DNA of 64,000 nt from Aurantiochytrium sp. KH105. Lineage: Eukaryota; Sar; Bigyra; Thraustochytrida; Thraustochytriidae. Positions 18,301 to 55,001 of the stretch are shown one piece after another. Location: NCBI GenBank assembly GCA_003116975.1, contig BGKB01000039.1, positions 310,001 to 374,000 of the forward strand, given 5' to 3'. A program made the translations under genes and the position numbers. The notes under the pieces are model-generated. The model was not told the DNA's origin. It was given only the letters and a program-made list of their open reading frames with translations, and did no database searches. The stretch's first letter is position 1. The number at the start of each line of letters is the position of its first letter.

Positions 18301-18726
18301 TTCTCCGTCGCCAACAACAAAGTCGTCAAAGACGTACTCGTTTTCGGCTTTTTCGTCGCCGTCTTCCTCGTCATCGTTCTTGTCCTGGTCGCTTTCCTCT
18401 GCCTCGTCGTCGAGAAAGTTAGCGCCAGTGGGACCAGACGAAGAGGCGCCCTTCTTTTTCTTTTTCTTCAGCTTATTGTTCTTGGGCGCCGCTTTGTCCT
18501 CATCATTGTCACCACCACCACCACCATCATCATCATCGTCGTCGTCGTCATCATCGTCGCTGTTGGCCTTTTTCTCGTCGGCAACAGGGTCCTTTTTCTT
18601 TTGCTCTGTCTTTTTCTCCTCGTCTGAGGATTCGGAGATGTCGCTTCCGGAATCGGAGCCCGAGTCAGAGTCCGAGTCGAGGACCTTGGACTTGGCGCCC
18701 ACGCCATTGGCTGAGGGGTCCGCCAT
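12307..18726 (-). CDS. SPT6: SPT6, histone chaperone and transcription elongation factor, with a Gly/Tyr-rich C-terminal tail
   Basis: 2139 residues in one frame from an ATG at 18726. Order: a long Asp/Glu/Lys-rich acidic N-terminus (1-330) with segments such as DFIVDDDFEEGEE; the Tex-like helical core; a YqgF/RNase-H-like region (TVQESTKLPSIVKRK, PHYILLNASAGMRMRG); a helix-hairpin-helix stretch (ILPFVPGLGFRKAKALVESL); an S1 domain (VRITGIKSRFIDVQLANG); and tandem SH2 domains, the first with the phosphate-binding GEYIIRPSSHGLKHLTVTW. Spt6 travels with RNA polymerase II, binds the phosphorylated Rpb1 linker through its SH2 pair, and rebuilds nucleosomes. Unusually, the last 115-130 residues are almost only Gly, Ser and Tyr in GGYGG/SYGGG repeats. 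A GC-rich divergent spacer separates it from the WW/SPIN90-like gene. Confidence 0.96.
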   Translation of the reverse strand: MADPSANGVGAKSKVLDSDSDSGSDSGSDISESSDEEKKTEQKKKDPVADEKKANSDDDDDDDDDDDGGGGGDNDEDKAAPKNNKLKKKKKKGASSSGPTGANFLDDEAEESDQDKNDDEEDGDEKAENEYVFDDFVVGDGEEDEEGSDSDSDSDSESNKRKRTKKRLRKGRKRPKISQDDLDLVRENQKQSGVQVFGAEQEDRLFRGERIPEEEPLDGEDEFDEDADFIVDDDFEEGEERRRAKKPKGNLSKEEEKLREQDETFNDLFGFSKEEFELDPEADRELEYGDVEEARRRQMLKQRKRQMEEMFDFATRAENYMLEEDELIRKTDLPERIQLLERTVNLKRSPRFGGEYFMRSPEELSQSGGATTESKETGYGDDEMMLGSATLGATVEAAGSNSEAQQRVAQAEWVYTHLDKLYTDRFGIGLPKPLSDLREPIRKALEHMQRESMEVPYVYMYCAPDITPLTLDDLWNIFDLGIKYARTLDWRDLLCKLVRRVVPVNIEDEESVAVDASGAAAGVSDNVTFYRDALIERIKRLRGQDLSIQRLKEIHTYVTFMFGDGLTEAQAHAARRARRKRHRELLRQKKEKAKASRAATSSDSKKPGDGQSEEIDALFQGGESDDENYVPPGQEAAAGENAPAAEAGADASTQQQAQEGGAAAAAAGTTTETKEDDATNGAGSADSNAAGESGNKGEAPRSAAIVPSKSGGGQDDLSDLSDDSDLSDSDEEDFGGKPDDLDAVSDNEHDRMMRDELQAQRERAKMLKEKRKKRAERRKQQTTLLKRKTGNSTGQHGRLEAWGLMRFCNMIGSAARFGACVEEGRVLWKPREPQDETDAPNLLAHVAIGAELRNEEAVEAAAIQSLAYEISSEPRVLAFLRKLYRQHGKVRTRLTVRGRAQIASNPLSEYYEVASLCYKPFSEFLGHQKILAAAEAAAVAGQPAAENADAMSISDPYAQAPAAATRNANNGRVPEHETQVLLILSAEAENLLTKSVNRAELTQIILLEFSKYLLTAEGVQCVTTGMRLGEVPRSADEHQTIELPQKDVFRPWDRIRFDVLLRAVTKHMLKFVEKAMFSELADRARDLIVRKSAARLWREVTTAPLSFPIDHSQVAIPKDRYVGPDAVKIMAVYLTDENKVTNYAVVVDAQGTVQESTKLPSIVKRKEVEAGLTALREQHKPHYILLNASAGMRMRGMTIGLEREAQDRAQRARPAHDLAELLETDVRNATERDVAEENPDGLFIPLIIDDSIACAAAASSRRTKEDPEADMNLRRATAMARFMLNPLQEVCALWTDVTREDVTQYERSEIFAIDLHPMQGKVAAMPYLRQLERVLVNAVSLTGVDVNHIVRYTHARTILPFVPGLGFRKAKALVESLERSSRIVASRDSIASWLRKYSVPAGAALKDVDAAMEEDNDDDDAARGAMYNGDGAGLQSRRLIVYLNAAGFLRIDFNTHVSADGSRAYMDEDEGYNTIESNPFDATRIHPKDRLLEGALLWAVRKGLDRQMPEPDHEGKLDSNVIDLARRVMQKSRRRVDAQLSEDPMWLAKYGAKAWFAYPDEATALSYKYDAPRSLFPVVLEDEALHSLQLVPGDDICDANVDQIAEALSHMAEDPAHLRSKIRTFLRELQLPFVMCLAPRRQLPQAELFDALTGENDRTLFRECDVTVRITGIKSRFIDVQLANGLRGSIHVNELSNQRPPSVDSGFHSNAGIDPMNPAAPPNQDADPLRPLKEWMANTLQLGVGSELLARVLEVQKDRFSLKLTAKPDVLNRPPYIKFDDPFWMRPQTLEDRSRAKRNKNRTADGALKRLITHPSFENITRGEAEESLRDKPVGEYIIRPSSHGLKHLTVTWKIADVPEPMFQHTDVQEDPKKSEKDPKLVPPLTIMRSGQQLRYEDLDEMLARYFTPMAEFLADLYKFRYFVSKNNEETDHELRAAKAKQPRRIPYKINPMENQPGYFTLHFMPGTSTVSKLKISLTPDGYKLHDQRDFNNLEDLVQYFKTNWKDLLRGSRSRQSSGRYGGSSYGGYGGGGGGGSSYYGSQGSGSGYGGGGGGGGSYGGGYGGGGSGGYGGSGGYGGSGGYGGSYGGGGSYGGGGSYGGGGSGGYGGGGGGSGGSGSYSYGGGGGGGSGGGSYSYGR
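12310..12663 (-). repeat. GGN/TAY triplet-rich repeat encoding the Gly/Tyr/Ser tail of SPT6
   Basis: Imperfect tandem repeats, seen on the plus strand as GCCGCCGCC(ATA/GTA)GC, encode about 115 residues of GGYGG, GGSYGGG and SGGYGG units. They stay in frame to the natural stop codon, so the repeat is translated. Confidence 0.9.
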
Positions 18727-19733: not shown

Positions 19734-20118
19734 AGGAAAAGCGAAAAGCGAAAGCGAAAAGAGAGAAACAAGAGGGCTTTCCCAGACGGCGAAGAGCAGC
19801 AGGCTGAGCAGCCCAGACCAGATCGGCAAGACGCTCGCGCGCAGGGCCAGGCTCGGGGTCGGAGACGTCTGCGGACGGGATCGGGAGCGCCCGGACCGGA
19901 GACGCGACCGGGCCTCGGAGTCGCGGTGACCTGGCACGTCGCGTGGGCGGGCTGCAAGTTGCGAGGGACTTGAGAGTCGAGTCAACGCGCAGGCGAGCTG
20001 ACAAGCACGCGCACACGCGCGCACACACACACGCGCGCGCGCGAGAGAGAGAAGGAGGGAGAGCGGCGCAAGAGGACTCTCGCGCGCGGCGAACGTGTCG
20101 CGTGAGGCCGCTTCTAAG

Positions 20119-22155
20119 ATGGCGGAGGTCACCAATGTGTGGTACCTGATGCATACCGAGGACGGCAAGCCATATTACTACAATCGCGCGCGCAAAGTCA
20201 CCCAGTGGGAAGAGCCCGAAGGCTACGTTATCGACGCACAGCGTGTCGAGGACCAGGACCAGGACCAAGGCGCAGAAGCCGGCGCCGAGGGGGCTGCCGA
20301 GTCCAATGAAGATGGCATGGATCCAAGTCGCAAGCGTGATTCCTTTGTGCAGCGTCTTCGCAACGCTGGATCGCGAATCCAACGCTCAAACCAAATGAAA
20401 CGCGGAGGCGCTGCTGCAGAATCATCGCCGGGCAAAAGTGGGGCAGCGTCCGTAGTCTCGAGTACTTCGGCATCTGCAAAACAATCTCCCTCTGTATCAT
20501 CCTCCCTACTTGCGGCAGGGAGTCGCTTCGGTGGTGGTGCCGCACGATCCCCCTCGCAGCGTTTCCAAAAGGGCTCAATCTTGCAGCGCCGGTTGCACGC
20601 CAAGCCTCCAGCGGCGCCTTCTGGGAAAAGTTCTAGCTCCAGCAGTTCCTCATCGTCTTCTTCGAGTGGCAGTAGTAGCGATCGCGATGATGATGAAGAC
20701 GACGGCGTTGATGACGATGATCAAGCCACGCACAGCATTGCGCCCTCAATGAGGACCGATGGTGCTCTCATCATGTCGTCTCTGCCCGCTCCGCGGAGCA
20801 GTCGGGCCTTGTCAACTGCAGTCAGCACAAGTAGAGCGACGAAGAAGTCGCAACGGCGACCGAACATGTGGGAGAAAATGAGGACCGTCACCATTGGCAA
20901 GGCCACGGACGACGACGATGCCGGCGAATACTACTACGTCAACAAAGAAACGGGCGAGTCGCAGTGGAACCGTCCCGATGATTACGAGTCCGACGACGAG
21001 GCCATTCGAAATGAGGAACTTGCAGAAGCCGCCTTTGATACCGAAGCTTCGGTGGAAGATATCCTCATCGAACTCGGCTTCATTTCCGATAGCGGCGACA
21101 CGCCGTCAGTCGTACGCGATCGTGAGGAGATGCTCGATACTGGCATCGACGAGGATTATCGATGCGAGGCGAGATTGCGACAGCTTTTCCTTGCTGTCAA
21201 GTACGCCGGTTCCGTAGACGCTTGGGACGAAGCGATTCGCAAAGATGACTATCTGGTCGTGCGCGAGATCTATCTCCACCTTGGCGATGGATCCAAGGTC
21301 TCCGATTCCGTCCGTTCCCTTACCCTCGTGCTGCTCGAGACGTTTCAGAAGCTCGATGGTCTCCTCATTCGCAACTACGTCGACGGCGAGTGGGGGCTCA
21401 ACCCTGAAGATTTCATGACAAATCTTGCGCTGAGCATTGATGCCTTTGGCGAGGGCAATGCGGAAACCAAATTCTCGATCCTTGCTCTTTGCTACAGCTT
21501 TTTGACTGAGGTGCCGAATCTCGATAGTGACTCGTTGCCCTCCAATGCAACGATCAATAGGCTTATGGAGTGCATGGAAGCTCCCGACGAGGATGTCTTT
21601 CTCATGGCAACATACGTTCTCGTCGCTTTGAACTCTCATTTCCCTTTTACGGCGCATCCAAATCGTACCATGGGTCCCGAAACTGGAGATGAGGATATGA
21701 CTGAGACATTGGACGATGAGCCAAATTTGGTGGTCAGCGTGCTCAAGAGCGACTCCCACAAGGCAGAGTTTTTTAGCGAGGCTATTTTGCACTTGCTAAA
21801 CTCATCGACCTACCCTTATGAGGACCCTGTCCTCTTGGGTCAGTTGCTGTACATGTTTCGCGCCCTATTTTCCACGAGGGCTACTCGCGACTTTTTCCAT
21901 CTCAACGATCTCAAGGTCATGATCGATATCGTGTTGCTCCAGATTCGGGACCTTCCTCTTGATGATGAGTTTCGCTCCGAGTACCTTCGTGTATTGCACC
22001 TGACTATCATTAACTCGCCATGGAAGGGATATCGTCGGGCCGAGATCCTCGAGTCGCTCGATGCTGTGCTCGAGGCCGCGCAAGACGGCATGCTTGAGCT
22101 CGCCTGCAAATGCGCGCTGCGGATTCTCCTCGACTGCGTTGTTCAGCTTTCCTGA
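20119..22155 (+). CDS. Double WW-domain protein with SPIN90/Ldb17-like leucine-rich domain
   Basis: 678 residues from an ATG at 20119 in good context (AAGATGG); a GTG-started extension is ignored. WW1 is at residues about 7-40 (VWYLMHTEDGKPYYYNR with a later TQWEEP) and WW2 at about 253-292 (GEYYYVNKETGESQWNRP). Between them lies a Ser-rich, basic linker with a long Ser run, probably disordered. Residues about 350-670 are all-helical and match the SPIN90/Ldb17 leucine-rich domain; the best segments are LLYMFRALFSTRATRDFF and LNDLKVMIDIVLLQIRDLP. That domain activates Arp2/3 to make linear actin filaments, so a role in actin nucleation or endocytosis is inferred. WW domains bind proline-rich ligands; animal SPIN90 carries an SH3 domain instead. 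Confidence 0.75.
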   Translation: MAEVTNVWYLMHTEDGKPYYYNRARKVTQWEEPEGYVIDAQRVEDQDQDQGAEAGAEGAAESNEDGMDPSRKRDSFVQRLRNAGSRIQRSNQMKRGGAAAESSPGKSGAASVVSSTSASAKQSPSVSSSLLAAGSRFGGGAARSPSQRFQKGSILQRRLHAKPPAAPSGKSSSSSSSSSSSSSGSSSDRDDDEDDGVDDDDQATHSIAPSMRTDGALIMSSLPAPRSSRALSTAVSTSRATKKSQRRPNMWEKMRTVTIGKATDDDDAGEYYYVNKETGESQWNRPDDYESDDEAIRNEELAEAAFDTEASVEDILIELGFISDSGDTPSVVRDREEMLDTGIDEDYRCEARLRQLFLAVKYAGSVDAWDEAIRKDDYLVVREIYLHLGDGSKVSDSVRSLTLVLLETFQKLDGLLIRNYVDGEWGLNPEDFMTNLALSIDAFGEGNAETKFSILALCYSFLTEVPNLDSDSLPSNATINRLMECMEAPDEDVFLMATYVLVALNSHFPFTAHPNRTMGPETGDEDMTETLDDEPNLVVSVLKSDSHKAEFFSEAILHLLNSSTYPYEDPVLLGQLLYMFRALFSTRATRDFFHLNDLKVMIDIVLLQIRDLPLDDEFRSEYLRVLHLTIINSPWKGYRRAEILESLDAVLEAAQDGMLELACKCALRILLDCVVQLS

Positions 22156-36470: not shown

Positions 36471-36990
36471 CCCCGCGTTTCGACATCGCCCGAGTTGCAC
36501 CGCGGCACGGAGAGGAGAGGAGAGGAAGGGGGTCCCCGCGCGCACACCGTGTGTACCTACTTTCGTGTGTCGCTGTTAGTTCGTTGTTAGGGCGTCTGAG
36601 GCCGCTGCGAGCGGGGGAGAGCGAGGGAGGGAGGGAGAGAGGGTGAGAAAGAAGGGCAAATCCTGGACGCGCAGAGCGCACGCAGCCGCGCGGCGCGGCG
36701 CGAAGCGGGTGCGGCCGGCGGGAGCACGCGGCGCAGACCGCGGCGGTGGCCGCGCGGCAGCTGGCTGGCTGGCTGGCTGCGCGCCTGCACGGCATCGCTC
36801 ACGCGGCGTCGCCTCGTCGGCGCACGTACATTCAGGCAGACAAGCCGCAGGAATCCAGCGTAGACAAACAGACACTGCAGGCAAACAGGCATCGCGCCGA
36901 CACGTGCCTGCGGAACCCAAGCGAGGGCAAGCCCCCGAGCGTCGAGCGTCGCGACGGCGCAGCGAGGGAGGTGTCCAGGACAGAGCCAGG
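36471..36990. promoter_or_regulatory. Short divergent promoter region (FANCE-like / OTU genes)
   Basis: About 0.5 kb between divergent ATGs, GC-rich, with GAGGGAGGGAGG purine repeats near 36615-36640 and a short (GGCT)n array near 36762-36779. The OTU reading frame is open through it from a GTG but has no ATG before 36991. Confidence 0.45.
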
Positions 36991-38868
36991 ATGGGCAACG
37001 GGTCAGGGAAGCTGCCTCTGGCGGGCGAGGTGGTGGACGTATTCGTCTCCGCGTACAACATGTGGGCCCCGGGTGTTGTGGAGAGCGTCGATCCCAAAAA
37101 GGGCACCGTCTCGGTGCAGGCCATTGTGGACGACCAAGAGTTTCTCGTGCCAATCGCGCGCAAGAACGCCAAGTCGTATCTGGCTGCCCGAGGGCAATAT
37201 ACAGGCGTGAGTCGACAACACCAAAAACCACAACAAAATCAACAGCAGGGACGACGTCTGGAGCCCGAACCGGAGCTATCTCGCGCGCAGTCCAAGCAGC
37301 AGTACGCGGCCCAACTCAAGTCGGAACGCGAGGCTGAAGCCCTTGAGGAGGCCCGAGCCAAGGCGCGCGCTCGCCCAAAATCGAAAAGGCGATCCAGAGG
37401 CGTGGTTGTAGCGCGCTCTGTGGCTGTGGCCGGGCGCTACGCTGACGACGATGAAGAACTTGGGCTCGCCACTGCCGTCCCCGACGACGACGACGACGAA
37501 GGCGACGACGATAACGACAAAGACTCTTTCAAGAAACCCGCGCCTGCGCCCGTGGCATCTTCTGTACCTCTTCCTCTTCAGTCTGCGAACGGCGCCCTGG
37601 CCCTCAATGACGACGATATGGCCCTCATGCAGTCGGCCGTGGGCGAGGCCATTGAAGACGACGGCATGGTGCAGTTCACGGATGTCTTGGACAAGTCGGT
37701 TCCCCTAGTGGAGAGTTATGGAGACTTTGGGGCCTCTGCTGGTCATGCACCGGGATCCTTTCCGCCACCTCCGCAACGTGGCTGGCGTTGGCGGCCCGCC
37801 ATGGTCCTCGGCGCGACGGATAACGGCCGCGTGATGGTTCGTTATCTTGACGTGGACTCCATCCCTCGAGAATACCCGGAAACGGGGGAGGTGGATCTGG
37901 ATGACGGAGACACCTTTTCAGCGTATGAGACCATGTCTTCTTCGCACATTGTGCACCATTCCTATGCAGTCGACGACGTTCTTGATGTAGAAGACCACTT
38001 TCCCAGCAAAAAGGGCAACGGCATTTGCAAAAGGTGGCGCAAGTGCCAGATTGTTGCACTTTCAGGTCCGTACTTTATCCGCGTTACCTTTGTGGGTTGG
38101 TCGAAGGCCTTTGACGCCTGGTTCCACGTACTCGAGCAGGCAGACCGCCTCGCTCCTTTCGGCAGCCACACCGAGAAGGGTCTTGAATCATCTGCGGGAC
38201 TCGACGGCGTCTTCTTGAAGAACTTGCAAAAGGATCGCGAGCTGACCGTGTACAGCGTGGAACCTGATGGCAATTGCCTTTTCCGGGCCGTCGCACACCA
38301 GGTCTACGGGGATCCAGAGCGACACGACATTGTGCGCTCGGATTGCTGCGACTACCTGGAAAAGAACCGCGAGCGCTTCGCGCCACTGCTCGGTTCCGAC
38401 CAATTTGACGACTACGTCGCGAACAAGCGCCAACTCAAGGTTTGGGGCGACGATCCGGAGATTCGTGCCATGGAGGAGCTCTACGATCGACCTGTCGAAA
38501 TTTACGCCGCCACTGGCCTTGGAAGCAATACGGAGCCACTCAAACTGCACTTTGAAGGCGACCTTCCCTCGGACAGCAAGATGGGTCGCTATCTGCCGAT
38601 TCGCATTTCCTTCCACGGCAACAACCACTACAACTCGGTCATTCCCTATGTGTCTCGTCAAGAGGTGACGAGCAAAGGTCGCAAGGTCAATGTGGATGTT
38701 TCAGCTGACGCGTGGGACCCGCCAGCGATTCGCACAAAGGGTGTCATTCGTAAATACCGCACGGGTCGTGGATCAAGACGTCTCTCTGGCGTGGCAGGAT
38801 ACCGTCTCGCTACGCAAAACCTTGACGAGGTTGATGCAGAAGAGGATGAGGGCAAATTCGCCGACTAG
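36991..38868 (+). CDS. OTU-family deubiquitinase (OTUD5-like) with tudor/chromo-barrel-like N-terminal region
   Basis: 625 residues from the first ATG at 36991 (MGNGSGKLP; Gly2 makes N-myristoylation conceivable but the context is not ideal). Residues about 8-65 look like an Agenet/tudor-like barrel (GEVVDVFVSAYNMWAPGVVE). A charged, Gln- and Asp-rich linker follows. Residues about 260-390 form a second barrel-like region, with a typical chromo-barrel/tudor-knot phrase IRVTFVGWSKAFDAWFHV. The OTU protease covers about 418-555: PDGNCLFRAVAHQVYGD carries Asp426 and the catalytic Cys429, and HGNNHYNSV carries the catalytic His546. MEELYDRPVEIYA and RISFHGNNHYNSV match the OTUD5 branch. It should cleave ubiquitin chains; the barrel regions suggest methyl-lysine or nucleic-acid contact, which is inference. 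Confidence 0.88.
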   Translation: MGNGSGKLPLAGEVVDVFVSAYNMWAPGVVESVDPKKGTVSVQAIVDDQEFLVPIARKNAKSYLAARGQYTGVSRQHQKPQQNQQQGRRLEPEPELSRAQSKQQYAAQLKSEREAEALEEARAKARARPKSKRRSRGVVVARSVAVAGRYADDDEELGLATAVPDDDDDEGDDDNDKDSFKKPAPAPVASSVPLPLQSANGALALNDDDMALMQSAVGEAIEDDGMVQFTDVLDKSVPLVESYGDFGASAGHAPGSFPPPPQRGWRWRPAMVLGATDNGRVMVRYLDVDSIPREYPETGEVDLDDGDTFSAYETMSSSHIVHHSYAVDDVLDVEDHFPSKKGNGICKRWRKCQIVALSGPYFIRVTFVGWSKAFDAWFHVLEQADRLAPFGSHTEKGLESSAGLDGVFLKNLQKDRELTVYSVEPDGNCLFRAVAHQVYGDPERHDIVRSDCCDYLEKNRERFAPLLGSDQFDDYVANKRQLKVWGDDPEIRAMEELYDRPVEIYAATGLGSNTEPLKLHFEGDLPSDSKMGRYLPIRISFHGNNHYNSVIPYVSRQEVTSKGRKVNVDVSADAWDPPAIRTKGVIRKYRTGRGSRRLSGVAGYRLATQNLDEVDAEEDEGKFAD

Positions 38869-44732: not shown

Positions 44733-46766
44733 CCTCGCCCGCGCGAAGGCCTGCCGCTTCGACGATGGATTGCTTTGATGGCCTCTTGTCTTGGAGCCGA
44801 CGGCTCATCCATCACCTCTCCCATTATAGATAGTATGATGATGCGAGACTCGGACCAAGCGAGGACTCGGAAGGAGGAGATGGGACGAGTTCGAGGGCGC
44901 AAAGGAGGACTGCTCCGAAATGAGATGGACGCGACCGTGCTCTGCACTCCCCCCTCAGCCTGCCGTGCTACGCTGGCCTGCAAGAACGAAGATCGATTTG
45001 AGGAATGGCAAGAAGGCGGGGAAGAGCGATGGGCGGGCTTTGTTTGATGTGTCTCTTTGTCTCCGATAAGGATGATGGGTGAGTGAGTTTGTTCGAAAAT
45101 GGACAAAGCACGTTGTGGCGTAGGCCTATACAGCACATTTTTCGCCATAGTTATTTTCAGATGCTCGTGACAAATCATCAAAAACAACAAAGAAAGAACA
45201 AGAGCGGGCGCGTCCCCTGCATACTTGGTCACGCTCGAAATCAACTGCAACGCAAGAGGCACCATCATTCATTGTTCGGGCGCAACGGTTCCCATGGACC
45301 GTTCAAGCCTCGCAGATTCTCTGTGCCGCGACAATCGCAATGTCGTCGTCCACTCGCTGAGGCCCCGAGAGCTCTGCTCGGTGTGTGCTCCACGCGAAAG
45401 AAGGGGGGATGATTTCTCACAGAAGCGTGAAGAGGTGTCCCTCGATGCCCGCGCAACGATGCGGAGTCTGTCTCCACCGTGCGCTCCATGGCCCTCCTCG
45501 CCTTCTCTGCGGCTATACATGCGCGCTCTTTCCGGCCGCTGTTGTCAGCCAGCTGCAGCTGCAGCTGCAGCTGCAGCTTCTTCCCTCGCGCTCGTCTGTC
45601 GGAGAGCGTCGCAGCCGCCGTGCGTCCAAGGCTGCTCTGCTGAACCCGCGACATCGTCACGATCGCTAAGTTACTTACTGTTGGTAGGCCACTTCTATGA
45701 CGGACGCTCTGCGCGGAGTCATTCATGGCCGGGTCAACGATCTCCGCCGCGCCAGTGGCCCCGGTCCGGGAGCCCGCGACGCCGGCGCTCGCGAGAGAGA
45801 AGGCAAGCGCGGGTCGCCTGCAGGCGTCGGCAGGAGTGCGTCTCGGCTGCCCGTCGATACTTGCTCTCTTGCCGGGCTGCCGGGCTGGGCGGAGGAAGAG
45901 ACCTCTTCACTCGAAACGCGCAAGTTGAAACGCGCAAGTAAGTTGCGGTCGCAGTCGCGGCCGCACCGATCATCGAGGTTTGTTTGGGGCCTCAGGCCCA
46001 GGCTGCGCCCGCGCGGCGCGACACGTCGACCGCGCGGGGGGGCGTCCCGAGGAGGGCAGGGGGAGGAGGCACGAGGACGGGAGACGGACGGGTGGAGGGA
46101 GGCCCAGAGCCACTGACTTCTTCAAGCTGCAGCTGGTTGGACGAAGGGCGCGCGTTTCGCTCGAAGACTGGCAGGCCGGCTGCACGTGCGCGCGCACGTG
46201 CATTGCTCGCTCGCAGCACGTGCAGGCTGACCGAGCCAAGCCCAAGACAAGGCAACTCACGTCAACTCAAGTCAAGCCGAGCGCACCGCACCGGGCCGGG
46301 CCGAGCCGAGCCGAGCCACAGCCTGGCAGAGCCTCCCCCCTCGCCCCGCTTTCCGCACGTCGCGTCGCGTCGCGTCTGGTTCGCTCGGCGCGGGCTCCGT
46401 GGTTGCTCTCGCTTCATTCTTCCCTCGCGACTCCATCCATCCATCCATCCATCCATCCATCGATCCCGCTCACCAAGATCTGCCGCGGCTCCCGGCCCGC
46501 GGAGGCGCCTCTCCTCTCCGCGCGGCGCGCGCCAGGACCAGCGCAGCGCAGCAGCGCAGCGCGGCGCGGCGCGGCGCGGCGCAGCGCAGAGTATCCCTGG
46601 CGCAGAGCACAATACCTTCGCGGCGCGGTCGGGCGCGGCGCGCTTCTCGCCCCGGGGAGGAGGGAGACCCCTAACCGAGGCGGGCGCGGCGGGCGCGGCG
46701 GGCGAGGCGAGGCGAGGCGAGGCGAGGCCCTCTCTCTGCGCGCGGCGCGGCGCGGCGGGCGGGACG
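44733..46766. promoter_or_regulatory. 2-kb divergent intergenic region (TTL-family gene / PH-like unknown gene)
   Basis: The longest spacer in the window. The first 500 bases are moderate GC; 45540-46760 is very GC-rich with (AGCTGC)n at 45550-45578, (CATC)n at 46434-46462 and GCGCGGC runs near 46550-46600 and 46680-46760. A GTAAGT donor-like site near 45937 on the plus strand could start a 5' UTR intron. The open frames are low-complexity. No gene recognised. Confidence 0.4.
46434..46462. repeat. (CATC)n tetranucleotide repeat
   Basis: Seven CATC units in the GC-rich upstream region of the PH-like gene. Confidence 0.9.
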
Positions 46767-48080
46767 ATGCAGCGCGTGCTGAGCGGCGTGGAGGAGATGC
46801 CGGTCTTCGACCGCGAGGGCAGCGCGGAGAGCCTGGGCAGCGCGCCGAGCAGGGGCGCGAGGAGCGGCGGCGATGAGGGGGGCGACGCGGAGGGAAACGA
46901 CTTCGTGAAGACCGCGCGCGAGGACGGGCTCCGGCTGCGCAACGACGTCCGCGACGCCAACGCGCTGCTGCCGCCCAGGAAGTACCGCTTCGTGGGCCTC
47001 TTCGAGGACGTGACGATCCGGGAGATCACGCGGGCTCCGGACGGCCAACGACAAGAAAACTACCAGCCTCCGTGCGTGAGCGGCTGTATTTTCCTCATGC
47101 ACAACGCGATCATCATCGCCGGCGCGCGAGAGGACATCGACGAGTCCGAAGATGGCTGGGTACCGGGTCTCGTCGACACAGAACACATGCAACATCGCTT
47201 TCATGCGGGCGTCGAGTCCGCCGCATATCCAGACGAGGAGCTCGGCGAGGACGGCGAGTTCTTTGTCAAACATCTCGGACAGGAAACGACACAGGCGATC
47301 GACAATTCTGACCGCGGCGTCGTGGCCTCGATGCGACTCTCAAGGCTCAGACGCAGTGCGCGTCCCAAAGTCCTTACCGGTCAAGACGACCAGAAATCGA
47401 GTCTTGATGAGGCAGGCATTCAGCAGCAGCAGCAGCAGCACGAGGACGCAGATGACGATGATGTCGACGAAAGCGAAGACGACGATGGTCACGTTCACGA
47501 TGTTGACGACGAAGCATCCATGCAACTCTTGTACATGCTCAAGCTTGACAGGGTCAAGCTAGGATCAAGCCCAGCTTCGAGTTCAACGGTCCGCTTTCGC
47601 TACGCTCTCCGCACCAGTGCCCAAAGCAAGTCCACGGGCCGCGTGCGCTTTTCGACACACATCTTCTCCGTCGAACTCGGGTTCGTGACACCTCGCCACT
47701 GCGCAGAGTTTCGTCGGCAGATCGTACTCAGCAAGGTCAAGGCGAATGTGGAAGCAGATTTTGACCAGCAAAAAAAGTCTGCAGCCTCGTCGGGCGCCGC
47801 AAAAAAGGTTCGAAGGTGGAACCGTGAGAAGATGCATCGGCCAAGTCGACCGCAGCCTCACTTTTCGGGAATCGCCATGCCCCCACGAAGTAACATAAGT
47901 AACGCGCGGCGACTTTCCTTGTTGCGCCTTACCGCAGCACTACCGCGTGCCAATCGCCCTGGTGCCAATCGCCCTGGTCTTAATGGTTCTTTCGTCGGCC
48001 CTCCAGGCGCTCAAAGAGAAAGACGCGACAGTATGGCGAGGCGAGGTTTCCCGCAACGATTTGGAACACCCCCAAATTAA
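46767..48080 (+). CDS. Unrecognised protein, PH-like region with poly-Gln/acidic insert
   Basis: 437 residues from the first ATG at 46767; the open frame further upstream is GC-rich low complexity without an ATG. Residues about 70-120 (YRFVGLFEDVTIREI then VSGCIFLMHNAIIIAGA) and about 250-325 (LLYMLKLDRVKL, then HIFSVELGFVTPRHCAEFRRQIVLSK) together look like a pleckstrin-homology-type beta barrel ending in a helix, split by an insert of about 130 residues. The insert holds a run of Gln (CAG repeat at about 47419-47441) and Asp/Glu-rich sequence. If the PH reading is right, it would bind phosphoinositides or protein partners, as in RhoGEF-type proteins, but no GEF domain is present. The C-terminus is basic and Asn/Pro/Arg-rich with two copies of RANRPG-like repeats. 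Confidence 0.6.
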   Translation: MQRVLSGVEEMPVFDREGSAESLGSAPSRGARSGGDEGGDAEGNDFVKTAREDGLRLRNDVRDANALLPPRKYRFVGLFEDVTIREITRAPDGQRQENYQPPCVSGCIFLMHNAIIIAGAREDIDESEDGWVPGLVDTEHMQHRFHAGVESAAYPDEELGEDGEFFVKHLGQETTQAIDNSDRGVVASMRLSRLRRSARPKVLTGQDDQKSSLDEAGIQQQQQQHEDADDDDVDESEDDDGHVHDVDDEASMQLLYMLKLDRVKLGSSPASSSTVRFRYALRTSAQSKSTGRVRFSTHIFSVELGFVTPRHCAEFRRQIVLSKVKANVEADFDQQKKSAASSGAAKKVRRWNREKMHRPSRPQPHFSGIAMPPRSNISNARRLSLLRLTAALPRANRPGANRPGLNGSFVGPPGAQRERRDSMARRGFPQRFGTPPN

Positions 48081-49010: not shown

Positions 49011-52000
49011 CTAGGAAAGAGAAGAGCGGCGACGTGTTGACGCGCGGCGATTATGTAGCCTGCGGGCAAGAGCTTCGTCTTCTTCAATGCTCGGAACCTT
49101 GCCTGAGCCTTGATGCCCATTCTCTTCCGCATCGGTATCGGGGTCGCTGTCCTTGTTATTCTTATCTCTCGATCTCGAACCAGCGCTTGACCTCCGCTTG
49201 ACCTTGGTCTTTGCTCCCTCGGCGCTAAATCCTTTACCGTTCGGAGCGTCCCCAGTTTCGCTTCCGCTACCGGCTTCTCCATCAGAATCATCCTGTTGAG
49301 ATGCTTTGGATGCCGCCTTCTTCGCGGTGCTCTTTCTCGACGATTTTTTGCTCGCTGAACCTCGCTTGCCAGAAGACGAATTTTTTCCTTCTTCGTACTC
49401 TTCATCCTCGTCATCGTCATCGTCATCAGCCTCCTCCTCGTCCTCACCTTCATCAGCGGCTGAACCATCGTCTCCAGCGCCATGCGACTTCCCGTTGGCG
49501 TTCTTCGAAGCACCACCTTCCTTTTTCGTTGCCGTGGTACTGTTCGACTCCTTGCCGTTTTCCTTGGGGCTGTCCTGCATGTCCGCATCTTCATCATCAT
49601 CATCATCGCCGTCGTCATCATCGTCTTCCTCAGCCTTGACGGCAGCCGCGAGAGCCTCCGCAGCAGCTGCTGCACTTCGTCGACGAGACGAAGACGCGCG
49701 TCTGCGAAGGCTTGCACGACGCGTAACCCTGCGCGAACGACCACGTCCATAGTTGCTGTCGTTGTCCTCGTCCTCGTCGACATCAAGATCATCATCGAGG
49801 CCCAGTTCCTCGTCGCCCACCATGCTTCCATCCTCACGCAAACGTTCCTCTTTCGCCTTCTTCCGGGCAAGATACTTGAACTGCGTATTCGCCTCGGGAT
49901 TGATGGGCTGTTTCGGAAGCTCTGGGTACTCGCTGAGATCAAGCGACTTCTTCTGGTAATGCTGCGAGTAGTGAGCAATGCACAGAGTCTGCGAGCCCCA
50001 AGGTCCACGCGACCACGATGACGTCTCCGTGGCACCGCAGTAGCGGCACCAAGGCTTGCCTTCTTCGTCAAGCTTTTCGTACGTGGAAGGATCAAGAATC
50101 TCGACCTTGACCTCTTGGTTCTTGCGCGCAGGACGAGCCCGGCTCGAAGTGCTTCCCGAAGCGCTCGCAGCGCTCGAGTCGCGCGATCGCTTCGCCTTCT
50201 TGGCGGAGCGCTGCCGCTTTGTCCCGCCCTCGGAACGGCGCCGCTTGCGCTCGGCCGTCTCCTCCTGCTGACGCTTCTCCTTCTGTGCCTTCTTCACGCG
50301 GCGCGCTTCGTCCACATCGACAATGGGAACCTGGCTAGGGTCTGCGTAAAAGTACTTTTTGTAAGCCTTGTGGATCTGATGTCCGCACGAAGACGTCTCA
50401 CGAAGTTCGAGCTTTCGACGGATCGACTGCCACAGCCGCTCCACCACTACCTTTTCGTAGCCACCAAAGTCGTCGACCGTTTGGCGCAGAATCTCCGGGT
50501 CAATCCACTTGCCCTGGATAATGAGCATCTCCACCTTGCGGCCATCAACGTCAGCCCATCGGCGAGGCTTCTTGTTGTTCGAAGATGAGCCTCCTCCCGT
50601 GTAGTCGTCGTCATTGGCGTCATCATCGCCGCCATCATCAAAAGAAACCTTCTCCGGACCACCCTGTGCGGGAGACGGCTCGTCGCTGCCAGGGAGTCTC
50701 TCGCCATCGAAAAAGGTCTTGATCTTGCTCACGTCGTAGTTGCGGCGCGAGGGACGCTCAATTTGCTTCACAAACTGGTTGGCGGCAGCCTGTTCACGAT
50801 CCGAAAAGGTGCGCTTCATGGTTACGATCATTTGCAGACAGTTTACCACGTCCTGCTCATAGTCTGGGGTTGGGTTGCCACGCAGCTTTTCCTCAATAAC
50901 TTGGTGCCCCACCACACGAAGCTCGGTGAAAAATGCCTGCTTCTTCTCCTCTGTCTCGTACGCCGAGCCATCCGTGAGACGAGCCACCATCGTGCCACGC
51001 GGATCCTCACCGAGAACCTTGGTCCAGAACTTGGGGTCCTGGACGTCAATTTCCTGGTCAGTTCCGGCGGCCACAAAAGACGCCTTGGAAAAGGAAAAGC
51101 CGCCAGTATTGTCTGCGTCCGCGGCGCGATCCCAGTTCACCTTACGACTGTCCTTGAGCAAGTCGTCAATGTTTGCCTCCGAGTAGGCCTTTTGCTTTTT
51201 GGCCGCCTCCTCGTCATCCTCCAAAAGACGATAGGCACCGTACTTGAGAAGTTCCTCAATTTCCTCCTTGGAGGCCGGTTCGGCCACAGCGCTCGAGCCC
51301 TGACGACCCAGCACGGCCTGTTCGAGTCCGAGCTTCTTCGCAGCGCGATCAAAGAGGTGAGCCTCGTAGGTAAGCCGCGTCACAAATCGATACACGTTGA
51401 CAGACTTTTTCTGCCCGATGCGATGGCAACGTGCCATGGCCTGCAGATCGTTTTGCGGGTTCCAATCGCTGTCAAAAATGATCACCGTGTCGGCCGCGGT
51501 CAGATTGATACCTACACCACCGGCACGAGTGGACAGCAAAAAGACAAAGCTCTTGGCGACGGGGTCACAGAATCGGTCAATGGCCTTTTGACGCGCGTTG
51601 CCCGAAACATTGCCATCGATGCGCTCCACAGGGTAGGCCCGCCGAGGGTGCGCACAGTAATCGGAAATGATATCGAGCATCATCTTGAACTGAGAAAAGA
51701 TGAGCACCTTGCGATCCTCCTTGCGCAGCTTGGCCAGCAGCTTGTCGAGAAGCACCATCTTGCCGCTCGCGTTGATCATGTGCACGAGCCACTCTTCCGA
51801 ATCGTACTTGACGTCCGTGGTGAGGGCTTCGCGCTGCTCGACACCAGAGATTAAAAAGGGATGATTGCAACACTTGCGCAGTTCCATTTCAATACTGATG
51901 AGCTGGGGCGAAACGCCGCGACTCGACGTCACCACACCAGGACCGCCACCGAGAAACTCGCGATTACGCTCAAAGATGGCGCGGTAGTACTTCTTTTGCA

Positions 52001-55000
52001 ACGTCGTCAGCTCCACGTCAATGACGGTCTCCTCCTTGGCAGGGATGTCCTTTTCCACGTGCTCCTTGAGGCGACGGAGCATAAAAGGTTTGACGCGTGC
52101 CTGCAAGGCCTGGACCTGCTCGGCATTCTGCATGTCACCAAAGTGCTCGAGGAAGTCCGCCTTGTCCGGGAACTCGCGCGGTTCGATAAAGTTCAAGAGT
52201 GCCCAGAGCTCACCCACGTTGTTTTGCAAGGGCGTTCCCGTAAGAATAACGCGCACGTCCGCGCGAATGTACTCTGCAAAGGTTTGCGCAAGTTTGCTCT
52301 TTTTCGACTTGAGGCGATGACCTTCGTCCACGATGACGCCAGCCCACTTGATGTCGGCGAACTCGGCCCCGTCTGCACTAAGTGCTTCGTACGAAGTAAC
52401 CATGACGTCAAACTTGTACAGACCCGGGACCACCTTGGCCTGGCCGGTCTTCGAATTCTTGCGCCAATAGTAGAACTCGTGCTCGCGAATGAGCGCCCGG
52501 GCCTGCTGACCCGTGATTCGCCGGTTTCCTCCATCATGGTACACGACGCAGTTCAGGTCCGTCCAGCGCTCGAATTCGTTGCGCCAGTGGCCAAGTGTGG
52601 ACAGCGGGGCAACGACGAGAGAAGGCCGGTTCGGCGGGTTGCCGTGCAGCTTAAGGTGGCGCACAAAAGAGACGGTCTGGCAGGTTTTACCGAGACCCAT
52701 CTCATCCGCTAGCAAGGAGCCGCGTTTGTTGGCATAGTTGAAGGCGAGCCAGTTGAGGCCCTCGAGCTGGTAGGACCGAAGCTTGAGGCCGTCCTTGAAC
52801 GAGGGCGACTCCGTGTACTTGAAGAAGCGCGACCCCGAGGCCGAGGTAGCCATGCTCCCTTCTGCTGCGTTGGCGACGGCCGCCGAGTCGACTTCCTCAT
52901 TTTGCTGCATCTGCGTGCGCCAGTGCTCGTGGCGCTGCTGAAGTTGCTGATCCTGCGCTTCGAGCTGCGAATTCATGTGGCGAATGTGCTGCTTTTGCTG
53001 CATATGCAGCGCGCGCTGCTGCTCCGCGTGCTGCTGATTGAGCTGCTCAATCACTCCGTGATGCGTCTGCTGCACGTGCTGCACATAGGCAGAGAAGTTG
53101 GGAAAGTTGCCGTAGGCAGCGTCTCCCTTGGCGAGGTTGGGATCATTTTGCTGCTGGTACTGAAACTGTGCGATCTGTTGGCGGTGGCGCTCGCGCACGG
53201 CGTTTAGTTCATGCTCCTGGCGTTGACGCAATGCCTGGTCCTGACGCTGCAGGTGTTCTTGGACGCGGTGGCGGTGGAGGTTTTGCTGTTGCGCAAGGAC
53301 CTGACGTTCCGTGGTAATTTTGGACTCGATGCTCGTGTTTTGTATTGCCTGACGCTTGACGGCGGGGATCTTGGACCTGCGATGATAGGCCGCGATGGCC
53401 TGGTCATCGAGAATGTCCGAGGCGTTTTCCCACGTGGCATCGGCGTAGCTCATGTTTTTCCATTTGACCAGATACATGGGTCCGGCAGCCTTGTCATCGT
53501 CTTTGTTCGCTTGGTTCTCCTGCCCAGCCTTGAGTGTCGCAAACTTCTTCTCAAAGAGGTCGGAGAGACGCTCGCAGCAGTCGCGGACAAAGAGCTCTGG
53601 ATTTGTGTTGTAGATGCGGCAGTTGGCAAAGACAAGGCGCACGTCCGCGGCGAATTGGTCAACGTTTTCGTAGACGCGACCGCCCATAAGTCGCTGGCGG
53701 ATCGTGCCAAAGTCCATGGGCCGCGAGATCATGTCGTAGTAGCCCGGAGCCCCGTCGCGCTCCTCGTCGACGGGCTCCATAAAGTACACGGAGAGCTTGA
53801 CGCCCTTGTACCGGTGGTTGATGAGTTTAGAGAGGATCTGAGTGGCCTCGCGCACCCAGGATGGCGTCCGCTTGCGCTGCGTGCCGGGCTCCTCCTGGGC
53901 CTCGTCGAGAATGCGGTCGACCTCGACATAGCTGGGATCAAAATACTCGGTATCCTCGCGGCCGCGAGCCACGGCACTGGCCTCGTGCTGCTCGGGAGGC
54001 AGCGCGTTGACGTACCTTTTGAGACGCTGTGATCCATTCACGTCCTGGTCAATGAGGTCGGGGCTGACCCACTCGACGTGCAGGTATGACTTGCCGCGCC
54101 ATTTGACGAGGAATTCAAACTTGTCCTGCTCGCGCCTGCGCTTCTCGTCTTCTTCCTCGAGGAGCTCGCGGCGTGTTTTCTTTTTCTTTGGGGTCTCGAC
54201 GCTTTCCAGGAGCGCACCGGAAGGTTTGTCGCCGTCCTCGTCACCGCTGGCCGGGGCCTCCTCTTGCTCTGGGTCGTAGTCGGCGCGGAGTCGGCGACCG
54301 AGGATGTTCTCGATGAGGGGTTCTTCGCGTTCGCGGGGAGCTGCGGCATCCTCGCGATCCATTTCCTCGAAGAATGCCTCGTGTTCGCCCATGAGTTTGT
54401 CTTCTGCGAGGGACTTTTTCTTTTTCCGCGCCGAGGTGCCCCCGCGGCCGTTGTAGTCGTCGTCGTCATCTCGCATTGCACTGGTTGCAGGGGGGAGACC
54501 TGGAGGCCTCGTCGGCCTCGGTGCTGTCCTCGCGGTATTTGCCACGGGCATGTGCATATGCTGCATGTGCTGCATGTGCTGCTGCTGCATGTGCTGCTGC
54601 TGCTGCGAATATCCGCCCTGCATCACGGCCCCATGCCCTGCATGGTGTCCGTGCTGCTGGCCTGCCGCGTACTGCTGTCCATACTGCTGCTGGTGCTGCT
54701 GCTGCGGCACGTGCCCGGTCCCATATCCTGCGCCGCTTTGCGAGCCTTGGAGCTGCTGCTGCTGCTGCTGCTGCTGCAGCTGCTGCTGCTGTTGCTGCTG
54801 CTGCTGTTGCTGCTGAAGAAGCAGCTGTTGCCGCTGCTGCTCCGCGAGCGCGCGTTGGTCCTGCTGCGGCACAAAGTGCGCCGCCGCCGCCGCCGCCGCG
54901 AGCGCGCCTCCTGCCGCCGCCGCCGCCTCCTCCGCCGCGCCGCCGCCGGGCTCCTGCCTGCCGCCGACGCCCTCCAGCCCGCCCAGCGCATCGAGGTCCA

Positions 55001-55001
55001 T
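49011..55001 (-). CDS. CHD-like SNF2 chromatin remodeller: chromo-bromo-chromo-SNF2-ARID-like-GATA-like
   Basis: 1996 residues from the first ATG at 55001 (MDLDALGGLEGVGG); the longer open frame is GC-rich low complexity from a TTG. Order: Gln-rich N-terminus (40-110); chromodomain 1 at about 285-340 (KFEFLVKWRGKSYLHVEW); bromodomain at about 380-485 (YYDMISRPMDFGTIRQRL, FANCRIYNTNPE, including the acetyl-lysine-binding Asn); chromodomain 2 at about 504-540 (YLVKWKNMSYADATWENA); Gln/His coiled region; SNF2 ATPase from about 733 (DEMGLGKT near 768, VDEGH near 891 in place of DEAH) with helicase C (STRAGGVGINL, ARCHRIGQKKSVNVYR); an ARID-like stretch at about 1480-1540 (DFGGYEKVVVERLWQSI); a GATA-like finger near 1645-1680 (CRYCGATETSSWSRGPWG then LCIAH). 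The tail is acidic and Ser/Lys-rich. It should slide or remodel nucleosomes at acetylated/methylated histones. Confidence 0.92.
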   Translation of the reverse strand: MDLDALGGLEGVGGRQEPGGGAAEEAAAAAGGALAAAAAAAHFVPQQDQRALAEQQRQQLLLQQQQQQQQQQQQLQQQQQQQQLQGSQSGAGYGTGHVPQQQHQQQYGQQYAAGQQHGHHAGHGAVMQGGYSQQQQHMQQQHMQHMQHMHMPVANTARTAPRPTRPPGLPPATSAMRDDDDDYNGRGGTSARKKKKSLAEDKLMGEHEAFFEEMDREDAAAPREREEPLIENILGRRLRADYDPEQEEAPASGDEDGDKPSGALLESVETPKKKKTRRELLEEEDEKRRREQDKFEFLVKWRGKSYLHVEWVSPDLIDQDVNGSQRLKRYVNALPPEQHEASAVARGREDTEYFDPSYVEVDRILDEAQEEPGTQRKRTPSWVREATQILSKLINHRYKGVKLSVYFMEPVDEERDGAPGYYDMISRPMDFGTIRQRLMGGRVYENVDQFAADVRLVFANCRIYNTNPELFVRDCCERLSDLFEKKFATLKAGQENQANKDDDKAAGPMYLVKWKNMSYADATWENASDILDDQAIAAYHRRSKIPAVKRQAIQNTSIESKITTERQVLAQQQNLHRHRVQEHLQRQDQALRQRQEHELNAVRERHRQQIAQFQYQQQNDPNLAKGDAAYGNFPNFSAYVQHVQQTHHGVIEQLNQQHAEQQRALHMQQKQHIRHMNSQLEAQDQQLQQRHEHWRTQMQQNEEVDSAAVANAAEGSMATSASGSRFFKYTESPSFKDGLKLRSYQLEGLNWLAFNYANKRGSLLADEMGLGKTCQTVSFVRHLKLHGNPPNRPSLVVAPLSTLGHWRNEFERWTDLNCVVYHDGGNRRITGQQARALIREHEFYYWRKNSKTGQAKVVPGLYKFDVMVTSYEALSADGAEFADIKWAGVIVDEGHRLKSKKSKLAQTFAEYIRADVRVILTGTPLQNNVGELWALLNFIEPREFPDKADFLEHFGDMQNAEQVQALQARVKPFMLRRLKEHVEKDIPAKEETVIDVELTTLQKKYYRAIFERNREFLGGGPGVVTSSRGVSPQLISIEMELRKCCNHPFLISGVEQREALTTDVKYDSEEWLVHMINASGKMVLLDKLLAKLRKEDRKVLIFSQFKMMLDIISDYCAHPRRAYPVERIDGNVSGNARQKAIDRFCDPVAKSFVFLLSTRAGGVGINLTAADTVIIFDSDWNPQNDLQAMARCHRIGQKKSVNVYRFVTRLTYEAHLFDRAAKKLGLEQAVLGRQGSSAVAEPASKEEIEELLKYGAYRLLEDDEEAAKKQKAYSEANIDDLLKDSRKVNWDRAADADNTGGFSFSKASFVAAGTDQEIDVQDPKFWTKVLGEDPRGTMVARLTDGSAYETEEKKQAFFTELRVVGHQVIEEKLRGNPTPDYEQDVVNCLQMIVTMKRTFSDREQAAANQFVKQIERPSRRNYDVSKIKTFFDGERLPGSDEPSPAQGGPEKVSFDDGGDDDANDDDYTGGGSSSNNKKPRRWADVDGRKVEMLIIQGKWIDPEILRQTVDDFGGYEKVVVERLWQSIRRKLELRETSSCGHQIHKAYKKYFYADPSQVPIVDVDEARRVKKAQKEKRQQEETAERKRRRSEGGTKRQRSAKKAKRSRDSSAASASGSTSSRARPARKNQEVKVEILDPSTYEKLDEEGKPWCRYCGATETSSWSRGPWGSQTLCIAHYSQHYQKKSLDLSEYPELPKQPINPEANTQFKYLARKKAKEERLREDGSMVGDEELGLDDDLDVDEDEDNDSNYGRGRSRRVTRRASLRRRASSSRRRSAAAAAEALAAAVKAEEDDDDDGDDDDDEDADMQDSPKENGKESNSTTATKKEGGASKNANGKSHGAGDDGSAADEGEDEEEADDDDDDEDEEYEEGKNSSSGKRGSASKKSSRKSTAKKAASKASQQDDSDGEAGSGSETGDAPNGKGFSAEGAKTKVKRRSSAGSRSRDKNNKDSDPDTDAEENGHQGSGKVPSIEEDEALARRLHNRRASTRRRSSLS
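54745..54850 (-). repeat. CAG/CTG triplet repeat encoding the poly-Gln stretch of the CHD-like protein
   Basis: Seen as (CTG)n with interruptions on the plus strand; translated as runs of Gln with a few Leu and Pro near residues 50-85. A further out-of-gene CTG run lies at about 55168-55192. Confidence 0.85.

Follow-up and report, generated by a model that had tools for sequence, protein, structure and literature searches.

The window analysed here, a stretch of 64,000 nucleotides from Aurantiochytrium sp. KH105, carries on its minus strand a gene whose product is, as judged from its sequence, probably a chromatin remodeller of the CHD subfamily III type with a bromodomain nested in its second chromodomain. 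The features of this gene are collected in Table 1. A Pfam search with the whole protein (E ≤10) listed eight families, and the order from the N- to the C-terminus is chromodomain 1, bromodomain with chromodomain 2, SNF2, Helicase_C, ARID, and a GATA-like finger. Matches to HDA2-3 and Chromo_MIT1 remained below the cut-off in the same search. The scores of the named domains, other than the GATA-like finger, far exceed what chance would give. Tandem chromodomains that precede an SNF2 ATPase and Helicase_C, as found by Pfam, place the protein in the CHD family, with the second chromodomain apparently interrupted by the bromodomain. The initial annotation had described a single open frame with the order chromodomain, bromodomain, chromodomain, SNF2, and helicase, and the profile search on the 1996-codon frame confirmed this. 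The check by domain profiles that it proposed matched both the bromodomain and the ARID.

Table 1. Features of the KH105 gene and its predicted protein (positions are those of the window).
Feature	Residues (aa)	Positions	Strand	Evidence
Whole coding sequence	1996 aa	49011..55001	minus	ATG start, TAG stop, no internal stop
Chromodomain 1, candidate first strand	228-237	54291-54320	minus	By eye; motif scan gives no support
Chromodomain 1, body	288-328	54018..54140	minus	Isolated piece 28.8 bits, cut-off 25.1
Chromodomain 2, putative first strand, YFDPSYVEVDRILDEAQ	354-370	53892..53942	minus	CHD7 (non-database sequence) and CHD6 2epb motif scans
Bromodomain	389-468	53598..53837	minus	Pfam, 4.3e-16; isolated piece 65 bits
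Chromodomain 2, strands 2-3 and C-terminal part	501-542	53376..53501	minus	Pfam, phmmer
Q/H-rich stretch, chromodomain 2 to ATPase	556-722 (~165 aa)	52836..53336	minus	No Pfam family above cut-off
SNF2 ATPase N-lobe	744-1049	51855..52772	minus	Pfam SNF2-rel_dom, 6.2e-74
Helicase C lobe	1081-1196	51414..51761	minus	Pfam Helicase_C, 3.5e-25; motif VI MARCHRIGQ
Post-ATPase segment	1240-1328	51018..51284	minus	Aligns with human CHD7 (non-database sequence): EIEELLKYGAY..., SFSKASFVAAG...DPKFW
ARID-like DNA-binding domain	1493-1552	50346..50525	minus	Pfam PF01388, 3.4e-7, 31.0 bits, cut-off 24.1
GATA-like zinc finger, C-x2-C-x18-C-x2-H	1652-1677	49971..50048	minus	PF00320 below cut-off

The bromodomain most likely interrupts chromodomain 2 rather than sitting between two complete chromodomains. 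The first strand of chromodomain 2 (aa 354-370) and its second and third strands (from aa 509) are split by approximately 138 residues (insert at about aa 371-508). When this insert is omitted, the chromodomain match extends over profile positions 2-53 of 53 and scores 55.9 bits; the native second part alone reaches 48.4 bits with a match starting at profile position 11, and the joined domain with a shuffled first strand reaches 45.6 bits (one shuffle). Motif scans point to the same place. The first-strand motif of CHD7 (a non-database sequence) scored best among all positions at aa 354 (59, next 15; 0 of 300 shuffles), and that of CHD6 (PDB 2epb) at aa 355 (50, next 17; 0 of 200 shuffles). 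The residues YVEVDRIL are the same as in strand 1 of CHD6 chromodomain 2. Moreover, the phmmer alignment with yeast Chd1 runs across the removed insert, and BLAST with the native protein aligns aa 297-369, from chromodomain 1 through strand 1, with the non-database CHD7 (1e-8). The order of a bromodomain between two chromodomains, as originally annotated, thus stands, but the second chromodomain is very probably split rather than complete.

Some alignments are contrary to nesting, and they bear on the rather improbable alternative that two complete chromodomains are joined by a linker that contains the bromodomain. The strand-1-like stretch would then be a remnant of the linker, and strand 1 of chromodomain 2 would come from elsewhere, e.g., aa 481-508. 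BLAST places native aa 481-535, including the last part of the bromodomain, over chromodomain 2 of the non-database CHD7 including strand 1 (33.9 bits, 1.6e-4), and the high score of the second part from profile position 11 onwards also fits this arrangement. The BLAST alignment with yeast Chd1 puts the putative strand 1 opposite the helix that lies between the two chromodomains; the first-strand motif of yeast Chd1 missed the site at aa 354-370, its best score being attained by 133 of 300 shuffles. However, with aa 345-375 added, the second part gains 7.5 bits and its match starts at position 2 of 53; with this piece shuffled, the score falls instead. The identity of the strand with that of CHD6, and the CHD6 and CHD7 motifs having no notable second place in the protein, likewise favour the split chromodomain. 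For aa 218-560, the AlphaFold2 model from the single sequence had a pLDDT of 37.4 and gave no information on the nested fold. An intron covering the bromodomain stretch appears unlikely, because this stretch codes in frame and keeps its pocket residues.

The bromodomain itself is predicted to be of the acetyl-lysine-binding type. Alignment with BRD4 indicates that Asn465, Tyr421, and Phe407 of the pocket are kept, and we take the Asn and Tyr to be the residues that matter for acetyl-lysine. The BRD4 shelf WPF corresponds to VYF in the KH105 protein. By sequence, BET and BPTF bromodomains are among the best-scoring solved bromodomains (best 60 of 406), although their host proteins are unrelated to the KH105 remodeller. 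Acetyl-lysine reading within the chromodomain gate had been proposed in the initial annotation; the candidate reader is indeed located inside the double-chromodomain module, and more intimately than was claimed, while gating is plausible only. A passive bromodomain, placed in an insert-tolerant loop and without influence on the motor, is unlikely. Such tolerance could be read from chromodomain 1, which by eye shows a loop of about 55 residues at the corresponding place. Against it, the Asn and Tyr of the pocket are preserved, and an oomycete chromo-SNF2 protein likewise has a bromodomain beside a chromodomain, as listed in a table of PMC4030286. Pocket and recurrence together suggest that the bromodomain has been retained for use.

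The Chromo family is represented by two stretches in the whole-protein Pfam search (2e-17). In chromodomain 1, the loop that by eye separates the candidate first strand from the body is charged; the first-strand motif of CHD7 chromodomain 1 located no strand here, its best score being reached by 28 of 300 shuffles. Chromodomain 2, joined without the insert, scores higher against yeast Chd1 (2h1e, 39.4 bits) than against CHD6 (2epb, 32.7 bits). Methyl-lysine reading by either chromodomain appears doubtful, because neither has a full aromatic cage at what are presumably the cage positions of CHD1 chromodomain 1 and HP1. By eye, chromodomain 1 keeps Trp301 and has Lys304 at the place of the second CHD1 cage Trp, while chromodomain 2 has Trp514, and Met517 where the third cage residue of HP1 would be. 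Support for the methylation reading suggested in the initial annotation is thus weak.

The ATPase motifs are intact as read from the sequence. Walker A is DEMGLGKT, and motif II has the form DEGH, where DEAH is usual. The ATPase appears to belong with CHD subfamily III (CHD6-9/Kismet) and not with CHD1. In a tree of six rows, whose CHD7 reference is not a database sequence, the KH105 protein groups with CHD7 with a support of 100/99; grouping with CHD1 (p-AU 0.0003) and with CHD4 (p 0.0006) is rejected. The identity of the ATPase is 52% to this CHD7 versus 43-44% to the four other rows, and BLAST gives 626 bits to the core of this CHD7 versus 470 bits to yeast Chd1. Kinship with CHD1, the point of comparison in the initial annotation, is not supported. 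The usual domains of subfamily III, SANT and BRK, are missing, which is a point against this placement. No Pfam match to either was obtained with the whole protein (E ≤10) or with C-terminal pieces (E ≤1 and ≤10), in searches whose HMMER filters may drop weak matches, and no SLIDE was found in the whole protein or the C-terminal pieces.

It is very unlikely that the protein is a remodeller of the CHD1 type (subfamily I) that carries additional domains. CHD1 chains are the best PDB matches among those listed, and chromodomain 2 alone is nearest to yeast Chd1. However, no CHD6-9 ATPase chain is present among the best 60 of 455 PDB matches or among the 40 matches of a second PDB search, so kinship with subfamily III could not be revealed by the PDB. 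The tree with the non-database CHD7 rejects CHD1, and the DNA-binding and C-terminal families of CHD1 are absent from the eight Pfam families listed.

Between chromodomain 2 and the ATPase, a Q/H-rich spacer is present that had not been mentioned before. Towards the C-terminus, the ARID had been described as a half-domain. It exceeds the curated cut-off in the whole protein, where profile positions 24-86 are matched, and as an isolated piece it scores 36.3 bits over profile positions 23-86 of 89; about 23 positions at the start are unmatched, and the coverage of approximately 72% of the model is more than half. The zinc finger is less convincing. Its Pfam stretch (aa 1652-1674) scores 17.5 bits in the whole protein and 23.0 bits when isolated, versus a cut-off of 26.8, and a His is the probable fourth ligand, so it lacks the four Cys of a GATA finger. 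The GATA-factor reading was rejected, and the case for sequence-specific DNA reading is weak.

The protein is probably an ATP-dependent nucleosome remodeller with a subfamily III-type ATPase. The bromodomain most likely occupies the loop that joins strands 1 and 2 of chromodomain 2, so that the folded chromodomain bears it as an outgrowth, and the double chromodomain may dock on the ATPase in the manner of yeast Chd1. By binding an acetylated histone tail of the substrate nucleosome, the bromodomain could recruit the motor to acetylated chromatin or stabilise it there, while the C-terminal ARID and finger might contact DNA in place of the SANT and BRK of other subfamily III proteins. Tethering to acetylated nucleosomes is considered reasonably likely and is rated above true allosteric gating by acetyl-lysine, which is plausible but of low probability. 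An equally tentative extension is that the chromodomain fold has the bromodomain threaded through it, so that an acetylated histone tail, once bound, directly moves the double chromodomain onto the ATPase or away from it. If oomycete protein D is likewise nested, this arrangement would perhaps be ancestral to stramenopiles. Such a protein would hold an acetylation-controlled gate within one polypeptide in a subfamily III-type remodeller. In CHD1, the action of histone marks on the gate is hard to separate. A natural protein whose gate module contains an acetyl-lysine reader would make this directly testable by one point mutation. For Chd1, gating by the chromodomains has been reported (PMC8197500).

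With CHD6-9, the KH105 protein has tandem chromodomains and the ATPase in common, and with CHD6 in particular the YVEVDRIL strand. Relative to the subfamily III type, to which CHD6-9, Kismet, and Dictyostelium ChdC belong, it adds the nested bromodomain, the long Q/H-rich spacer, the ARID, and the finger, while SANT and BRK were not found. CHD1 and yeast Chd1 also carry a double chromodomain ahead of the SNF2 ATPase, and strands 2-3 of yeast chromodomain 2 are very similar to those of KH105. In the phmmer alignment, 11 residues of the stretch that separates the yeast chromodomains are left without a partner, whereas BLAST aligns that stretch otherwise; a further difference is that Pfam listed no C-terminal DNA-binding family of CHD1. 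Relatives were confirmed neither in a viral collection (whole-protein, ATPase, and chromo-bromo queries) nor in a prokaryote collection (ATPase), which has no bearing on rarity among eukaryotes.

The arrangement is not unprecedented. A 2014 oomycete survey lists the order "[Chromo], Bromodomain, PHD, Chromo, SNF2" for "Chromodomain-containing protein (D)", PITG_03401 of Phytophthora infestans (Table 2 of PMC4030286), and this table is the sole record of a bromodomain between chromodomains in an SNF2 protein found in the portions of open-licence literature covered. The chromo-bromo-chromo SNF2 architecture was not found in the excerpts of PMC8638923 and PMC4751559. As far as the table description goes, PITG_03401 resembles the KH105 protein in its bromodomain between the chromodomains of a chromo-SNF2-Helicase_C protein. 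It differs in carrying PHD fingers, one next to the bromodomain and several at the C-terminus, with no ARID or GATA-like finger listed there; for some species, the table marks its first chromodomain as absent or not significant. The KH105 protein can thus be regarded as a refined variant of an order already known from oomycetes, in which the new elements are the probable nested position of the bromodomain, the subfamily III-type ATPase, and an ARID and finger instead of PHD fingers.

The CHD-type gene forms a single frame on the minus strand (window 55001 to 49011), with an ATG start and 1996 codons followed by TAG. In its protein, P0001, Pfam profiles upheld the initially annotated order of chromodomain, bromodomain, chromodomain, SNF2 and Helicase_C in one frame, followed by an ARID domain and a GATA-like finger. 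The ARID claim was borne out by a match over the curated cut-off that lacks the first 23 profile positions. The finger (C-x2-C-x18-C-x2-H) was also matched, but its score is under the cut-off. The ATPase carries both Walker A and motif VI. Motif II reads DEGH (aa 892-895, window 52317-52328); the usual SNF2 form is DEAH. At third codon positions, the G+C content of the bromodomain part (0.80) matches that of the flanking parts (0.72-0.80; aa 200-560), so there is no mark of recent foreign origin.

Features of P0001 (aa) and of its surroundings (window)
Feature	Position	Strand	Details
Bromodomain	aa 389-468		Pfam 4.3e-16
Chromodomain 2 (Pfam stretch)	aa 501-542		Pfam
SNF2	aa 744-1049		Pfam 6.2e-74
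Helicase_C	aa 1081-1196		Pfam 3.5e-25
ARID	aa 1493-1552		Pfam 3.4e-7, exceeds curated cut-off
GATA-like finger	aa 1652-1674		Pfam, under cut-off
Spt6-like elongation factor gene	12307-18726	-	one frame, 2139 aa; SH2_2, HHH_7
WW domains and SPIN90/Ldb17 leucine-rich domain, single protein	20095-22155	+	Pfam
OTU-type cysteine protease domain, long unmatched N-terminal region ahead	36643-38868	+	Pfam
698-aa frame	45984-48080	+	adjoins CHD gene; no Pfam match at E <= 0.001

The Pfam order places the bromodomain between two chromodomains, as had been annotated, but profile and motif scores indicate that it is most probably nested inside the second one. In native P0001 the second chromodomain match begins late, at profile position 12. 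When aa 345-375 were joined to aa 506-556, positions 2-53 of 53 were matched with 55.9 bits; the second part by itself gave 48.4 bits, and the joined form with its first stretch shuffled (one shuffle) gave 45.6 bits. The joined protein, with the insert omitted, aligns through the second chromodomain with yeast Chd1 (phmmer). The strand-1 motif of CHD7 chromodomain 2, taken from a provisional reference sequence, had its top site at aa 354 (score 59, runner-up 15; 0/300 shuffled proteins scored at least 59), and that of human CHD6 (PDB 2epb) at aa 355 (score 50, runner-up 17; 0/200 shuffles). Since motif scans located strands 2 and 3 at aa 509, about 138 residues lie between strands 1 and 2, and the bromodomain occupies this gap. 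With BLAST, aa 297-369, comprising chromodomain 1 and the proposed strand 1, matched the provisional CHD7 sequence with 47.8 bits, in the order that nesting predicts.

Other results point away from nesting and slightly lower the confidence in it. With the strand-1 motif of yeast Chd1 the proposed site was missed, the best score of this motif (21) lying elsewhere and being equalled by 133 of 300 shuffles, and BLAST aligned the proposed strand to the inter-chromodomain stretch of yeast Chd1, not to its strand 1. Native aa 481-535, including the last part of the bromodomain, were aligned over CHD7 chromodomain 2 with its strand 1 (33.9 bits). The strand-1 motif of CHD7 chromodomain 1 found no significant place in P0001 (best score equalled by 28/300 shuffles), and the sole structure model, from a single sequence, was uninformative (pLDDT 37.4).

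A CHD1-like kinship did not hold for the ATPase. The closest PDB chains, among the best 60 of 455 matches, are CHD1, and no CHD6-9 ATPase chain occurs among these or among all 40 of a second search. The human CHD7 core used as reference was a provisional, non-database sequence; as a control, CHD4 and SNF2H stretches written out in this manner agreed with PDB (SNF2H 513/514). Without bromodomain and spacer, P0001 gave 626 BLAST bits with the provisional CHD7 core (348/751 identical) and 470 bits with yeast Chd1 (290/721). In a six-row ATPase tree P0001 joined the provisional CHD7 with support 100/99, with 52.1% identity to it versus 42.8-44.3% to the four other rows. Trees of these six rows constrained to place P0001 with CHD1 or CHD4 were rejected (p 0.0003 and 0.0006, respectively). 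SANT and BRK are listed as subfamily III features in PMC13360762. Neither was found in P0001 by Pfam, on the whole protein or pieces, and chromodomain 2 alone is closer to yeast Chd1 (39.4 bits) than to CHD6 (32.7 bits). Given this mixture, P0001 is classed as a CHD whose ATPase is of subfamily III type, and not as a canonical member of that subfamily. According to PMC5378177, type III CHDs occur in animals and in Dictyostelium but are lacking in plants and yeast.

The bromodomain's top-scoring solved matches (best 60 of 406) are chiefly BET and BPTF. The acetyl-lysine pocket residues Tyr421 and Asn465 are retained, whereas VYF stands in place of the WPF shelf of BRD4. An acetyl reader built into the double chromodomain, as initially proposed, is thus consistent with the pocket and with the probable position within chromodomain 2; binding itself is predicted. 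The proposed methylation reading is doubtful, because neither chromodomain has a full aromatic cage: at the presumed cage positions, Trp301 is accompanied by Lys304 in the first and Trp514 by Met517 in the second. Gating in yeast Chd1 is described in a review (PMC8197500). Chd1-like gating cannot simply be assumed in P0001, since 11 residues of the Chd1 inter-chromodomain stretch have no counterpart (phmmer) and a Q/H-rich stretch of ~165 aa separates chromodomain 2 from the ATPase. Judging by the families, the motor would translocate nucleosomes, and the bromodomain, as an outgrowth of chromodomain 2, would tether it to acetylated chromatin, which is the best supported reading; the C-terminal ARID and finger would supply additional DNA contacts. 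It is possible that acetyl-lysine binding could shift the chromodomain gate, since the gate domain would have the reader covalently inserted in its own chain.

In the surroundings, 11 of 14 neighbouring frames (7/10 and 4/4) have a Pfam match at E <= 0.001 and three have none; those matched include the Spt6-like gene, Vps11, a DHHC transferase and a tubulin-tyrosine-ligase-like protein. The Spt6-like gene lies ~30 kb away on the same strand as the CHD gene, has HTH_44 and S1 matches under the cut-off, and encodes a long Gly/Tyr-rich C-terminal tail. The first part of the 698-aa frame may be a 5' leader read through. No tRNA and no Rfam family at gathering score were found in the window.

The original observation is confirmed; two points of its interpretation are corrected, and the prior art is partial. 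Table 2 of PMC4030286 includes, for oomycetes, a chromodomain-containing protein (D), with PITG_03401 as its reference (an identifier found in no other paper of the searched literature) and with the domains [Chromo], Bromodomain, PHD, Chromo, [PDZ], SNF2, Helicase_C, PHD, [PHD], PHD-like and PHD, where brackets mark domains missing or non-significant in some species. Judging from this table, P0001 is not the first case of a bromodomain placed between two chromodomains. Protein (D), known here by its listed domains, shares that arrangement with P0001, but P0001 differs in having no PHD matches and an ARID and finger instead; these features are what is new in P0001, together with its ATPase of subfamily III type and the bromodomain's position, which is probably nested.
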